From a virus, in IMG/VR virus record IMGVR_UViG_3300028388_002818, positions 1-51,538 of that record: a stretch of DNA of 51,538 nucleotides, one strand, 5' to 3'. Below the pieces are notes generated by a model. That model saw only the letters and a program-made list of their open reading frames with translations. It had not been told where the DNA came from and did not search any database. This document shows, piece after piece, positions 42,570 to 49,466 of this stretch. The position numbers and the translations under genes are program-made. Numbering within the stretch: position 1 is the stretch's first letter; each line of letters begins with the position of its first letter.

Positions 42570-44639
42570 ATGGCTTCTAACATCTTCTTCAACGGGCAGA
42601 GAACCTATCGACCTGGTGTATACCTTCGCGTCATTGACGCTATCACCGCGCCGACTTCGCTCTCCGCAGGCAATATCGCCGTTGTGGGTCATTTCCCTGT
42701 TTTAGAGCAGGGTAAGATTCACACCTTCTCTCAACCTCAGTCTATGCGTGACTATTTCTTCCCCGAAGGTATCGGCGGTGAGTCACTGCGTGATGACACC
42801 TTACGCCAATTGCAGTATGTTTCGGCTATTGCTTGGGACAACCTCATTGTCAATCTTGGGGACCAAGTTATCGACAGCATTAACGTGATTAACGTCACAG
42901 ATGTTGCCGCCGCAAGCATGACCCAAGACGGGCTTAAAATTGAGTCTAAGTTCTACGGACCCATTGGTAATCAGCTCAAGGTGGCTCTCGACCTCGACTC
43001 AGGCGCAGGTCTTAGCAAGCTCACCGTTAAGCGCGGCGAGACTGTGCTTGAGGAGTTTGAGGACATTGGTGATGATGACCCAACTCAGATTCGCTTCGAC
43101 AACAACGGCACGGGTGATTTCTCAGCTTGCACCGTTGAGGTGACCGCTTCTGCTCTTACCGACGAAGACGGTGACGGTGTTGTCGGCTCTGACGGTGACT
43201 ACCGCACAGGCGGCGAGCTTCGTGTTCGTGGCAAGGTGCTTGTAGACAACGCTGACGTTCTTGCGGGTGGTGACCTCTTTATCGCGCCTAGCGTGAGCTT
43301 CGGTGGTGGCGTTATTACCGCTAAGAACTTGTCGGCTCTCACAACGAGCCACACCCTCACCGTGACGGGTACAGCGTCAAACGGCACTGCACTCACTGAG
43401 GACCTTGACTTCACTTCGGGTGACGCGGCAAACACTACCCTCACGACTACCAACAGCTTCTACACGATTTCTAAGATTGAGATTGATAGTGGCTCAGGCT
43501 TCACGGGTGACCTTGAGCTTGGGTTCCCCATCTTCGCTCGCAGTCTTAACGAGATTACGAGCATGGGTGAGATTGTTTCTGAGCTTGCCGCGCTTGACTC
43601 ACGTTTCAGCGCGAGCGACGCACCTGCAATTCCTGTTTCGGGTATGGAGCTTGACCGTTTAGCTGAGGCTTCTTGCTTGGGCGTGGCGCTTGAGCTTGAC
43701 ACCCGCGCTTACCGTATTTGGGAGCGAGCGTTGAACGCCTCTCAGTTCTTGAAGACGACTTTGGTAAGCAACGTGCCACCCTCAGGCGATTTCGACGAGT
43801 ATCTTCGTGGTGGCGCTGTTGTTGATGACGCGGATAGCACCGATTGGGAGAACGCCCTTGCCGATATTCTCTACGAGAACATCAACATTGTGGTCCCCTT
43901 CTCTAGCGATATTGCTATTCACCGTCTTGTGAAGCAACACTGCACCGATGCGGCTACCAAGTCGGGCTTAGAGCGTAACGCGTGGGTGGGTACACCCGCA
44001 GGCACGAGCTTGCAGAACGCCCACCTACAGTTCGTGAAAGAGCTTAACGATAAGAATATGGCGGTTGTGGCTCAGGGCTTGCGCCTCAAGGCACCTAGTG
44101 GTGGCACAATTGTGTTTGAGGACCCCTATTGGCTCGCTCTCGCTATGGCGGTGCTTCAAGGCGCTACGCCTATTTCTGAGCCTCTTACGAGGAAGCGCCT
44201 CAGCAATAACGTGAATCAACTCTTAGGTGGTATTGCAGACCCTGACGCTTCTGCAAACGACGCTATTCGCAAGGGTATTGTGATTGTCAACGGTCGCAAC
44301 CGCCCCTTCCGTGTTGAGCGTAGTATCACCACTTACTTGAAGGACCCAAGCCACCCCGTCTTCACTGAGGTGTCTGCAAATGAGGGCATCAACGTGTCTT
44401 CTCGTGACGTTCGCGCTTACCTTGAGTCTGTGATTGGCTCAAAGGCTACCGCTGACCGTCTTGCTGAGGTTCAGAGCCTTGTTGTTGACCGCTTAGGTGT
44501 GCAACGCGACCGCTCTATCATTTCGGGCTTCCGTGACGTTTCCGTTGAGTTGGTAGGCGATACTATCAGCGTGAGTTATTACGTCGCCGCACAAGAGCCT
44601 CTTAACTTTATTCTCGTTAACGCCTACCTCTCACGCTAA
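42570..44639 (+). CDS. Tail sheath protein (689 aa)
   Basis: Contractile sheath, which makes this phage a myovirus. The start (GQRTYRPGVYLRVID) and the C-terminal domain (VNQLLGGIADPDASANDAIRK, then GIVIVNGRNRPFRVERSITT and VSYYVAAQEPLNFILV) fit phage sheath proteins. Between them, residues about 100-310 form an inserted beta-rich region, with a DEDGDGVVGSDGD acidic loop that could bind calcium and a T-rich Ig-like stretch (HTLTVTGTASNGTALTED). TAGGAGA lies upstream. The tail tube gene follows after 12 bases. Confidence 0.92.
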   Translation: MASNIFFNGQRTYRPGVYLRVIDAITAPTSLSAGNIAVVGHFPVLEQGKIHTFSQPQSMRDYFFPEGIGGESLRDDTLRQLQYVSAIAWDNLIVNLGDQVIDSINVINVTDVAAASMTQDGLKIESKFYGPIGNQLKVALDLDSGAGLSKLTVKRGETVLEEFEDIGDDDPTQIRFDNNGTGDFSACTVEVTASALTDEDGDGVVGSDGDYRTGGELRVRGKVLVDNADVLAGGDLFIAPSVSFGGGVITAKNLSALTTSHTLTVTGTASNGTALTEDLDFTSGDAANTTLTTTNSFYTISKIEIDSGSGFTGDLELGFPIFARSLNEITSMGEIVSELAALDSRFSASDAPAIPVSGMELDRLAEASCLGVALELDTRAYRIWERALNASQFLKTTLVSNVPPSGDFDEYLRGGAVVDDADSTDWENALADILYENINIVVPFSSDIAIHRLVKQHCTDAATKSGLERNAWVGTPAGTSLQNAHLQFVKELNDKNMAVVAQGLRLKAPSGGTIVFEDPYWLALAMAVLQGATPISEPLTRKRLSNNVNQLLGGIADPDASANDAIRKGIVIVNGRNRPFRVERSITTYLKDPSHPVFTEVSANEGINVSSRDVRAYLESVIGSKATADRLAEVQSLVVDRLGVQRDRSIISGFRDVSVELVGDTISVSYYVAAQEPLNFILVNAYLSR

Positions 44640-46644: not shown

Positions 46645-47013
46645 ATGAAGCCTAACGGAATCACTTGTTCGCACTACAATATGCCAGGTTATAGAAATCT
46701 CACCGCCTCAGTTCAGATTGACGGTTGTGGGTGTGCAATCATCGACATTACAGACGAGGGTAACATCGTCTATGATATTGATATGATTGAAGAACACTTC
46801 GCTGAGCATTTCGACGAAGAGGACCACACCGAACGCCTTATGCCAGGTGATACTGCGGAAGAGCGTTGGGAGGCGGCGCGTGATTGGGTGAGCTACAACG
46901 TACTTGGTGGCTTACCCTACGCTAACGCTCACCACAAAGACTCGGCACCCTGCATCATCACAAGATTGGAGGATTATGACCGAAAAGACCCGTTCAAAAA
47001 CTCCTTCAACTAA
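46645..47013 (+). CDS. Hypothetical acidic Cys/His protein (122 aa)
   Basis: Unrecognised. ITCSHYNMPGYR, then IDGCGCAIIDI, suggests a metal-bound N-terminus. The middle is very acidic with histidines (EEHFAEHFDEEDHTE), and the end is aromatic and basic. It starts 2 bases after the amidase stop without a strong ribosome site and overlaps the next gene by 38 bases in another frame. Likely a small cytosolic accessory protein. Confidence 0.7.
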   Translation: MKPNGITCSHYNMPGYRNLTASVQIDGCGCAIIDITDEGNIVYDIDMIEEHFAEHFDEEDHTERLMPGDTAEERWEAARDWVSYNVLGGLPYANAHHKDSAPCIITRLEDYDRKDPFKNSFN

Positions 47014-47233
47014 GCTCTCGCGTAAAGACCGTGAGCAACGAAGATATAAGCACTGCACAGGCTGTGGGGAAGAGTTACCTCGCAATCGCCCTAATTGGGG
47101 TTTAGTGTGGAACGATAAGGACCACGGTATGTGTAAACGCTGTTTATACGAAATCAGAAAAGCAATAGGGCTGTATAAGAAACACCCCCATTTAGAGAAG
47201 CAAGATAAACCGAGAAATTACAAAGAGTCTTGA
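46976..47233 (+). CDS. Zinc-ribbon protein (85 aa)
   Basis: The start at 46976 is decided by GGAGG 3-5 bases upstream. A basic N-terminus (KTRSKTPSTKLSRKDREQRR) is followed by a C-x2-C/C-x2-C zinc ribbon (CTGCG ... CKRC, about residues 27-58) and a basic C-terminus. This fits a small nucleic-acid-binding or recombination-endonuclease-like protein, but the His/Asn catalytic residues of endonuclease VII-type enzymes are not clearly present. Confidence 0.7.
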   Translation: MTEKTRSKTPSTKLSRKDREQRRYKHCTGCGEELPRNRPNWGLVWNDKDHGMCKRCLYEIRKAIGLYKKHPHLEKQDKPRNYKES

Positions 47234-47259
47234 TTAACCGCTATTTACAAAGTTATGAT
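47230..47259 (+). promoter_or_regulatory. Possible promoter before the tRNA-like/methyltransferase region
   Basis: TTGATT (47230-47235), an 18 bp spacer and TATGAT (47254-47259). It overlaps the stop of the zinc-ribbon gene and the ATG of the 51-codon ORF; if used, transcription begins inside that ORF. Confidence 0.35.
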
Positions 47260-47410
47260 TTGCACAGGTTGCGGTGAGAGGTTTTCGTTTCCTTTCCCTC
47301 TCGTAAAAACCGTTGCACTCCCCCGTGGTAGAAGGGGACCCAAACCTGAACTACCACACTTGGTGCCAAGCTCATTTTTGCGGTGTGGGCTTGTCACCGC
47401 CTATGCTTAG
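47255..47410 (+). CDS. Candidate small Cys-rich protein (51 aa)
   Basis: A short open frame in the 268-base gap before the methyltransferase. It starts MICTGCGERF, like the CTGCGEEL of the preceding zinc-ribbon gene, and has LRCGLV near the end. It includes a basic PRGRRGPKP stretch, and the Gly-Pro pair is coded GGA CCC as elsewhere in the genome. No clear ribosome site is present, and the last codons overlap the tRNA-like fold. The region also contains several short inverted repeats (for example GTGGTAG and CTACCAC at 47325 and 47351), so a non-coding explanation remains possible. Confidence 0.4.
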   Translation: MICTGCGERFSFPFPLVKTVALPRGRRGPKPELPHLVPSSFLRCGLVTAYA

Positions 47411-47472
47411 AGTGGTCTAACAGGTAAGACACCCCGCAAGGGCAGATGTGAGTTCAAATCTCACCTCTAGGC
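47406..47472 (+). tRNA. tRNA-like fold lacking a normal anticodon arm
   Basis: Acceptor arms CTTAG-AG (47406-47412) and CTCTAGG (47465-47471) pair over 7 bp with one G-T. The D arm is GTCT-AACAGGTA-AGAC (47415-47430), with the G-G of the loop. The T arm is GTGAG-TTCAAAT-CTCAC (47448-47464) with a normal T loop. Between D and T arms only 17 bases remain (47431-47447) instead of about 22-23, and they form CCC-GCAA-GGG-like pairing with no 7-base anticodon loop. No CCA is encoded. Either a decayed tRNA missing about 6 bases or a purpose-made tRNA mimic. Confidence 0.5.
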
Positions 47473-47501
47473 TTTCTTTTCCCTCTGCTAAGGATTCACA
47501 A

Positions 47502-49466
47502 ATGAGCGAAATAAGAACCGCAGACACTCAACTAGAAGATAAGACCCGCCGCAGAAGTGGCTCGTTCTACACGAAAGAGATATGGGCGGCGGAAGCCCAT
47601 AAGAGCCTCGACGCTGAGCTTGGCGTTGGGTGGCGTGACTCTTGTATCGTGTGGGACTGTTGCTCAGGCACAGGCAATCTCACCCGTGACTTCAAGTTTA
47701 AGGACCTTATTCTATCGACCCTCACTCAAGCTGAGGTAGATATGATGGTTGAAGATGACGTTAACCCCGAAGCTAAGAAATACGTTCTCGATTTCTTAAA
47801 CATGAGTGCGGTCCCCTCTGAGATTGACGCTCAGCTCAAGTTCGCCCGTGTTAGGAAGAAGCGCCTCGTATTTCTTATGAACCCGCCTTACGCCACTCAA
47901 GGCGTTATGGGGTCAAAGGGCAAGTCTAAAGCGGGTGTGGCAAAGACTAAAGTTCGTGACGAGATGCAAGCCAAGAAGCTAGGTAAAGCCAACAGTCAGC
48001 TCTACACTCAGTTCATGTTCAAATGTAACGAAATAGCTAAGGCTTATGGCTTCAAAGAGGTCACCGTCGCGGTCTTCTCAAAGCCTATGTTTATGTGTTC
48101 GGGGTCCTTCATTAAGTTCAGAAGCTATTGGTATAACGCCTACGAATACAAATCGGGTTTTATGTTTCGTGCTAATGAATTCGATGGGGTCAAAGGGTCT
48201 TGGGGTGTGAGCTTCACAATTTGGAACGAGGGGTCCACCGTCTTAAATCAAGACCTGCCTATCATGTTGAAGGAGCGTGAAGACGACACGATTAAAGACC
48301 TGCGAATCAAGATGTTATACACCTCAGAGGGGCGTGAAGCCTCTAAGTGGGTGCGTGAGCCTGTTAAGGCGGCGATTAAGAAAGCTAAAGATACCGTTAA
48401 GCTCAGCTCAGGCTTGAAGGTTAAAGACGGCGGTGATTATACGAAGGGTATGCCTGACGGAAGCGCAGGGGTGTTTTGTAATCACAGCAATAACGTGATG
48501 AAGTCAACCACCGACGTTTTCTATATAAGCGCTATGCCCTCAGACAAGGCGCGGTTAGTCATACCTCTTGACACTAATGAAGGGTGGCGACGTGCGGTTG
48601 CTTTGTGTGCGGCGCGGAGCCTCGAAGGTTGTTCGTGGCACAACGCCTGTGACGAATACTTGAAGCCTGTAGACTCACCCAAGTTCAGTTCGGGTCTGCG
48701 GGTGCGTGAGGTTGAGGCTAACGAAGGTGGCGTTATCGCAGGTAGTCTTGGCGTTATGTTTAATAAGGGCAACAACTTGAGTGACAACAGTTCGGGTGTG
48801 TCATTACTCAGCGGAAAGCCTACAGATAAGGGTAGAGGCAACTTTGAGTTAGTCCGTGGTGAGGGTTGGCGTAGAGCTATTTCTCTTTGCGCGGCTCGTG
48901 GGCTTACTGAGAGCGAGTGGCATAATGATAAAGACGAATACTTGAAGCCTGTCTGTACTAAATCGGCTTACGATAAGTGGGTTGATGATTGCCATATCTA
49001 CCTCTTGCTTGAGAACAAGAACAACATGACCTCAATGCGTCAGGTCGATTACAAAGGTAAGAAGTGGGATATTTTCAACCACTATTTCTTCTTAACCCGT
49101 GACGAGGCTCATACCCTTTACGCTCAACACTCACCCACGTTGCTTGCCGATTTGCAAAATACGACACACGAGCCTTATTTCGCAGAGGTCTTACCCTCGC
49201 TCACGCTCTCGCCGCTAGCACAAGAGGTCTTAGATGACCTCAAGGCGTTGCACGTTGACTCGATTAAGCACCGCGCCACAATCACACATGAGGGTGAGCT
49301 TGACCTTCATTTAGGCGCGTGGGATGCAGGGGTCTATCAGCACAAGAAGTTGTGGTATCAAGTGCCTGAGCTTCTTGCGAAGTGGAACGCCCTCAAGGTA
49401 AAACACAAAAAACTCAAGGCGCAACTCGCGCATGGCGTCTACACCTTTGGCTTCTTAAAGAAATAA
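47502..49466 (+). CDS. Large adenine-type DNA methyltransferase with duplicated domain (654 aa)
   Basis: The N-terminal domain has the AdoMet motif WDCCSGTGNL (residues 51-60) and the catalytic NPPY (127-130), so it should methylate adenine N6 (or cytosine N4) in DNA; the order of motifs fits the gamma/type I-like class. After a beta-region (VAVFSKPMFMCSGSFIKFRS) comes a roughly 90-residue unit present twice: at about 300-389 and 393-483. Both begin with SSGL-x-V and end GWRRA-x-x-LCAAR, then E-Y-L-K-P-V. These may be target-recognition domains. The C-terminal 120 residues are helical (KWNALKVKHKKLKAQLAHG). No restriction partner is nearby. AAGGA precedes the ATG at 47502. Confidence 0.88.
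   Translation: MSEIRTADTQLEDKTRRRSGSFYTKEIWAAEAHKSLDAELGVGWRDSCIVWDCCSGTGNLTRDFKFKDLILSTLTQAEVDMMVEDDVNPEAKKYVLDFLNMSAVPSEIDAQLKFARVRKKRLVFLMNPPYATQGVMGSKGKSKAGVAKTKVRDEMQAKKLGKANSQLYTQFMFKCNEIAKAYGFKEVTVAVFSKPMFMCSGSFIKFRSYWYNAYEYKSGFMFRANEFDGVKGSWGVSFTIWNEGSTVLNQDLPIMLKEREDDTIKDLRIKMLYTSEGREASKWVREPVKAAIKKAKDTVKLSSGLKVKDGGDYTKGMPDGSAGVFCNHSNNVMKSTTDVFYISAMPSDKARLVIPLDTNEGWRRAVALCAARSLEGCSWHNACDEYLKPVDSPKFSSGLRVREVEANEGGVIAGSLGVMFNKGNNLSDNSSGVSLLSGKPTDKGRGNFELVRGEGWRRAISLCAARGLTESEWHNDKDEYLKPVCTKSAYDKWVDDCHIYLLLENKNNMTSMRQVDYKGKKWDIFNHYFFLTRDEAHTLYAQHSPTLLADLQNTTHEPYFAEVLPSLTLSPLAQEVLDDLKALHVDSIKHRATITHEGELDLHLGAWDAGVYQHKKLWYQVPELLAKWNALKVKHKKLKAQLAHGVYTFGFLKK
48400..48951 (+). repeat. Internal duplication in the methyltransferase (two units of about 270 bp)
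   Basis: Units at about 48400-48670 and 48683-48951 encode related sequences with conserved SSGL, GWRRA, LCAAR and DEYLKPV positions, but diverged middles. This suggests a duplication of a DNA-recognition or scaffold module. Confidence 0.7.

Follow-up and report, generated by a model that had tools for sequence, protein, structure and literature searches.

The locus described here raises the question of what a phage could gain from a tRNA-like sequence that retains its acceptor, D- and T-arms but has no anticodon arm with which to read a codon. The window, i.e. the whole stretch of DNA that was analysed, is a 51.5-kb virus record of 51,538 nucleotides carrying contractile-tailed phage genes (tail sheath, portal, terminase, DNA polymerase A, thymidylate synthase and PhoH). 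The element was read directly from the sequence at positions 47406-47472 of the plus strand, and these coordinates, first given in a first-pass annotation made from the letters alone, proved correct; the Rfam tRNA model RF00005 matches the element end to end (40.8 bits against a cut-off of 29, model positions 1-71; E-value 2.2e-7, and 6.5e-9 in another search).

The MFE fold of the element consists of the acceptor, D- and T-arms listed in Table 1, and every one of its 16 arm pairs is formed (acceptor 7/7, one of them U:G; D 4/4; T 5/5). The tRNA elbow contacts are likewise complete, comprising U8:A14, the Levitt pair A15:U48, G18/G19 with U55/C56, and U54:A58. The element therefore possesses the 7-bp acceptor, the 4-bp D-arm with GG, the 5-bp T-arm and the TTCRANT loop of a canonical tRNA, together with its tertiary core (8:14, 15:48, 18:55, 19:56 and 54:58), but not the 5-bp anticodon stem and 7-nt loop. 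The place of the 17-nt anticodon arm is taken by CCC-GCAA-GGG, a mini-hairpin of 3 bp closed by a GNRA tetraloop; the D-to-T interior measures 17 nt, and in the anticodon region of the RF00005 alignment just 5 residues of the element stand against 11 of the model. As the decoding arm was looked for and is absent, the element is by definition not a tRNA. The first-pass annotation had described three intact arms around CCC-GCAA-GGG, which the fold refines to a GNRA hairpin, and had argued that random decay should not spare everything except the decoding part, an argument that holds. In addition, G47405 (position -1) is able to pair with C47472 (position 73) to give an 8-bp acceptor, and such a G-1:C73 arrangement is that of bacterial tRNA-His. 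No CCA is encoded at the 3' end of the element.

Neither ARAGORN, which reported no tRNA in the window, nor the fast Rfam scan run over the entire sequence detected the element. A permissive search of the window yielded no second tRNA-like place of similar quality, and no perfect-arm match was obtained in 60 Markov-resampled windows. The folding energy of the element is unremarkable (z of -1.08), so that its support comes from the tRNA pattern and not from stability.

Table 1. Coordinates of the element, its parts and the neighbouring features in the window.
Feature	Coordinates	Strand	Basis
Upstream ORF of 84 aa, CxxC...CxxC, zinc-ribbon-like	46979..47233	+	Sequence, ORF list
Strong hairpin of 14 pairs in the leader; its end lies 6 nt 5' of the element	47361..47399	+	Fold of 47360-47485
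tRNA-like element without anticodon arm, 8-bp acceptor counting G-1:C73	47405..47472	+	RF00005, 40.8 bits over 47406-47472; fold
Acceptor 5' strand CTTAGAG	47406..47412	+	7/7 pairs with 47465-47471
D-arm GTCT-AACAGGTA-AGAC, with G18G19, A14, A15 and A21	47415..47430	+	Sequence, fold
Mini-hairpin CCC-GCAA-GGG (GNRA cap) replacing the anticodon arm	47433..47442	+	Fold
Variable region CAGAT; U48 pairs with A15 (Levitt pair)	47443..47447	+	Position analysis
T-arm GTGAG-TTCAAAT-CTCAC	47448..47464	+	Sequence, fold
Acceptor 3' strand CTCTAGG; discriminator C73 at 47472; CCA not encoded	47465..47471	+	Sequence, fold
U-rich trailer TTTCTTTT	47473..47480	+	Sequence
Downstream ORF of 654 aa with NPPY motif	47502..49466	+	Start 30 nt after the element; AAGGA 8 nt upstream

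Two small CxxC ORFs precede the element, one of which, a candidate ORF of 51 aa at 47255-47410, overlaps its first 5 nt. The 654-aa ORF that follows is, from its NPPY motif, probably a putative adenine DNA methyltransferase; it gave no family or structure match in Pfam, PHROG, NCBIfam or PDB, and its two relatives, which are 46% identical, are both found without the window element. A recognisable promoter for the element was not found in the window. This arrangement is consistent with a cis-acting processing signal ('tRNA punctuation'), whereby RNase P and 3' tRNA nucleases would cut the leader fold and so give the methyltransferase mRNA a defined 5' end, separated from the late-gene transcript, the dispensable arm having been lost. 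The ATG follows the end of the element by 30 nt, the strong hairpin lies 5' of the element, and the leader position fits such a cis role equally well. A precedent is provided by the mammalian tRNA-like RNAs mascRNA and menRNA, which are processed by RNase P and RNase Z without a normal anticodon loop (PMC11693755).

The element might instead be the product of one-off decay, whereby an ordinary phage tRNA recently lost its anticodon arm in the window lineage, did not drift elsewhere and has no function. It sits in a compact intergenic gap, and the examined relatives of the window phage lack it: five phages with 71-75% identical terminase, represented by partial records, were taken as relatives and none of the five gave a tRNA match, the sheath region being covered in only two of them, with a different gene order there. 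The first-pass annotation had named, as an outcome that would count against its proposal, that every close relative carries a complete tRNA; this was not seen in these partial records. No viral relative was found with the sheath as query, and an exact-sequence search for the element gave no match. A looser CCCGCAAGGG pattern retrieved the locus L012, with the arm of the window element, and this locus was excluded from the cap statistics given below because the arm itself was in the pattern. In BLAST against cultured phages the element matched only phage 949 (E-value of 0.3), and this sole, weak match argues against decay in that it is also without a normal anticodon loop, as does the absence of any other tRNA, and hence of a source cluster, from the window. 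The sequence in question in Lactococcus phage 949 (about 1995-2065 of locus L300; 47484-47543 of the record) is tRNA-like and unannotated; a 4-nt AATT loop closes its 5-bp anticodon stem, and so it has no anticodon.

The recurrence of this architecture was assessed by scanning IMG/VR with patterns in which parts of the D- and T-arms were fixed and the D-to-T distance was too short for an anticodon arm. The class was defined by intact acceptor, D- and T-arms and a D-to-T interior of at most 18 nt, and it includes the window element. The IMG/VR scans, cultured phages and the window together gave 45 non-redundant elements with interiors of 6-18 nt, in which the arm is either cleanly removed (6-11 nt) or replaced by a capped mini-hairpin of 3-4 bp (12-18 nt); arm pairing within this set is not evidence, as at least 6/7 acceptor and at least 4/5 T pairs are present by construction. 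Pairing scores in the first scan were bimodal, with a separate chance-like hump near 10, and 30 of the 119 short-spaced matches listed paired at 15/16 or better, while random sequence reaches at least 14 in about 0.5% of cases. A second, stricter viral scan, run to completion, returned 32 matches, of which 22 scored at least 15; the acceptor was absent from its pattern, and nevertheless all 7/7 acceptor pairs were formed in 14 of 28 non-redundant matches as compared to 0.5 expected when the 3' halves were shuffled. For a cellular control, 84,980 bacterial and archaeal genomes were searched with a comparable pattern, limited to interiors of 6-11 nt, and the chance matches served as an internal measure of the amount of sequence scanned in the viral and cellular scans. 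At interiors of at most 11 nt, a score of at least 15/16 was attained by 9/46 viral matches versus 0/118 among the cellular matches listed (Fisher, 6e-6), a result which argues against decay, as armless and otherwise intact elements are missing from these 118 even though cellular genomes hold far more tRNAs. A D-arm-deleted counterpart was not found in 1.6 Mb of fetched viral loci, which is a weak control as the loci had been chosen for the anticodon type.

Cultured carriers of the class include Polaribacter phage Danklef, Lactococcus phages P162, P092 and P078, Gordonia phage OhMyWard and Lactobacillus phage JNU_P5, and a pattern made for the interior shared by Danklef and locus L108 matched only L108 and L124. 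Judged by their sequences, dozens of unrelated phages carry similar predicted non-decoding tRNA mimics, and the suggestion of a tRNA mimic made for the window element in the first-pass annotation has accordingly gained a broader footing. Some members lie within tRNA clusters, where the remnants expected from decay would be found.

Evidence on the function of the class came from positions 15 and 48, which were absent from every search pattern. A Levitt pair is present in 39/45 elements (G15:C48 in 21, A15:U48 in 18; p of 2e-9), the mixed exceptions between the two forms numbering one each; this covariation alone could come from the parent tRNA by inheritance. In each of the loci L281, L287 and L298, from three different metagenomes, an armless element lies 7 nt after the stop of homologous Cys-rich ORFs that are 36-47% identical. 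Six pairs are changed on both sides among the three, all 48 cells are paired (100%), and pairing falls to 33-48% in slid controls; G3:U70 is invariant, acceptor pairs 4-7 all vary, and A73 is present in all. This trio, at three sequences only, shows maintenance of the element after arm loss, and such compensatory changes in other phages speak against decay. The caps are further evidence of function for the class. GNRA or UNCG loops close 5 of the 23 interiors of 12-18 nt versus 0.37 expected, with 0 of 2000 shuffles reaching five; they are GCAA in the window, GAAA in L072, GTAA in L081, GGAA in L296 and UUCG in L099, and the independent count is four because the window is itself one of the five. 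The perfect 3-bp GNRA hairpin of the window element, a type of cap far commoner in the class than in shuffles, counts against decay. Maintenance has been demonstrated for other class members and not for the window's own phage, whose examined relatives are without the element. Taking both sides into account, we regard one-off decay in the window lineage as distinctly unlikely.

The acceptor ends of the class are of mixed identity. An alanine-type acceptor (G3:U70 with A73) is present in 7/45 elements as compared to 9/331 normal tRNAs from the same loci (p of 0.001, or 0.015 with the trio counted once), while pair 3:70 of the window element is U:A and not G3:U70. The element of Danklef combines G3:U70 with A73, and alanine would be its predicted amino acid. 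G-1:C73 was observed in 3/45 elements, about the 1/16 chance level, and the histidine identity of the window element is for this reason only a lead. Of the identities that work on anticodon-free minihelices, none are better known than G3:U70 and G-1:C73 (PMC9976931). Charging of class members is not assured, since only 4/45 of them encode a CCA, as compared to 167/342 normal tRNAs from these loci (p of 1e-7).

Across the class loci no recurring neighbour function was found beyond RNA ligases (L044 and L298) and an RtcB-type ligase (L081), and since there is no recurring neighbour gene and acceptor identity is mixed, one shared target is not indicated. The armless elements of L298 and L044 lie about 0.4-1.2 kb from mutually homologous genes, the L044 gene matching RNA ligase families, and the element of L081 precedes a gene for an RtcB-type tRNA splicing ligase by about 0.5 kb.

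The elements of Lactococcus phages P162, P092 (two copies) and P078 and of Gordonia phage OhMyWard are located directly behind one copy of a promoter-like motif, ACATRCCCTATAATGA, that recurs through the respective genome, end in a U-tract and have a paired leader and trailer. As far as can be read from these signals, the elements of Lactococcus Nevevirus and Gordonia Kenoshavirus (OhMyWard) are stand-alone transcription units. These bear directly on the processing signal introduced above, as elements with their own promoter and U-tract need no mRNA, and the paired leader and trailer should hinder RNase P. The invariant G3:U70 of the L281, L287 and L298 trio and the G3:U70 enrichment are also left unexplained by a processing signal. 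On the other hand, an SD-preceded ORF is found within 60 nt of 12/42 class members but of only 43/342 normal tRNAs (p of 0.009), a comparison weakened by the clustering of many normal tRNAs, and the element of L024 is positioned between the genes for an ssDNA-binding protein and a DNA polymerase, 14-22 nt from a neighbour. The proposal in the first-pass annotation of an RNase P-processed end before the methyltransferase mRNA may hold for the window, with its ATG 30 nt downstream, but the own-promoter elements of other phages argue against it as a general role. We consider the processing signal an unlikely explanation of the element, if a credible one.

A number of further observations were made on the cultured carriers. 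Small genes of L303 (OhMyWard) and L304 (P162) are preceded by about 8-10 copies of the motif ACATRCCCTATAATGA, which is thus shared by phages of Actinobacteria and Firmicutes. The Danklef_1 copy (43546-43603; 58 nt) has the interior TTTAGGTC and is annotated as tRNA-OTHER, Undet (NNN), while the copies of P162, P092, P078, OhMyWard and JNU_P5 are unannotated. Polaribacter phage Freya_1 (about 1990-2010 of L269), a sister of Danklef, has a 99% identical downstream gene but not the element, the break lying just past the 3' end of the latter; as Freya phages are without the element that Danklef has, its gain or loss can occur inside a single genus. In JNU_P5 (about 3125-3200 of L149) the armless element is followed by another tRNA-like piece, GACGGTA...GGCCGTC, and in Lactobacillus phage LFP01 (about 3027-3075 of L150) a copy of the JNU_P5 element diverges abruptly inside the T-stem, like a recombination joint.

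In P335-group lactococcal phages (L270, L271 and L275, near position 1994) the attachment region contains an armless tRNA-like sequence, with the integrase gene about 300 nt away in L275, and in one Lactobacillus phage the copy is interrupted inside the T-stem. Both speak for an attachment-site remnant, whereby the window element would be a host tRNA gene copied into the attP on which a phage integrase acts. However, what an attP shares with a tRNA gene is normally the 3' part alone, while the window element has both halves complete without an anticodon arm, and no integrase was present among the window ORFs tested, all of which makes an attachment-site origin very improbable.

We therefore return to the reading that the element is a non-decoding tRNA mimic of a recurrent phage class which acts in trans via its acceptor/elbow half, for which we judge the case to be evenly balanced. 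A trans-acting mimic is favoured because the class keeps the half that is read by maturation, CCA-adding and charging enzymes and drops the decoding half that is cut by anticodon nucleases, and because of the G3:U70 and G-1:C73 identities. Expression, processing, charging and target of the class we infer in all cases. For the window, the element would share a transcript with the putative methyltransferase gene, as part of its leader, and the analogy with pre-tRNAs suggests that host tRNA maturation enzymes would excise it. The freed RNA of 67-68 nt would then act in trans through the retained acceptor/T/D elbow as a substrate of, or competitor for, maturation, CCA-adding and charging enzymes, EF-Tu-type carriers or defence enzymes that act on the acceptor or elbow, and being armless it could neither decode nor be cut in the anticodon loop. 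The more specific idea of a decoy for a tRNA-cutting defence nuclease, voiced in the first-pass annotation, found no direct support, and most known nucleases of this kind act on the anticodon region that is missing here, PrrC, PARIS and RloC all acting on that part of the tRNA. A wider proposition, which we put forward tentatively and think on the whole rather doubtful, is that phages of many hosts encode small RNAs of a hitherto undescribed class, tRNAs whose anticodon arm is either gone or capped, selected as decoys or as charged non-decoding acceptors (some with alanine via G3:U70, the window element perhaps with histidine via G-1:C73), which anticodon nucleases could not cut and which would capture tRNA-dependent enzymes or defences of the host. 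If functional, such elements would mean that phage tRNA-derived RNAs serve not only in codon use or in replacing cut tRNAs, and a phage RNA of acceptor and elbow only would separate decoding from all other interactions of a tRNA. As tractable laboratory phages carry elements (Lactococcus P162, P092 and P078, Polaribacter Danklef and Gordonia OhMyWard), function is directly testable.

No description of anticodon-arm-less tRNA-like RNAs as a phage class was found in the open-licence literature, and to tRNA finders that seek an anticodon such RNAs are either invisible, as is the window element to ARAGORN, or labelled undetermined. The tRNA-OTHER or Undet (NNN) calls of phage genomes, e.g. that of Danklef_1, have the same armless architecture but are an annotation label only, and in this context PMC8776804 gives tRNA numbers without describing a class. 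The window element equals a canonical phage tRNA (RF00005) in its acceptor, D- and T-arms, its elbow and, apart from the arm, its length, and differs in that no anticodon arm or loop is present, so that no codon can be read and ARAGORN does not detect it. Phage tRNAs that counter the PARIS, PrrC, Septu and retron effectors are full tRNAs which replace cleaved tRNAs or evade cleavage (PMC10264068, PMC11555353, PMC13096335); a possible use in conflict with the host is common to both, whereas the region usually cut is absent from the window element. The tRNA-like domain of tmRNA (ssrA) likewise combines an elbow and acceptor without an anticodon arm, and shares G3:U70 with a subset of the class (seven with A73), but the window element has a proper 4-bp D-stem and neither an mRNA-like domain nor G3:U70. 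Its identification as such a domain was rejected on the lack of G3:U70, of a tag domain and of any Rfam or ARAGORN tmRNA match. The mascRNA and menRNA of the MALAT1 and MENbeta 3' ends are small non-decoding tRNA-like RNAs with an intact elbow, excised by RNase P and RNase Z (PMC11693755), and differ in being mammalian, in their enlarged anticodon-equivalent stem and smaller D-arm, and in having no homology to the window element. By analogy, the window element would work most like these minimal tRNA mimics, namely mascRNA and the tRNA-like domain of tmRNA.
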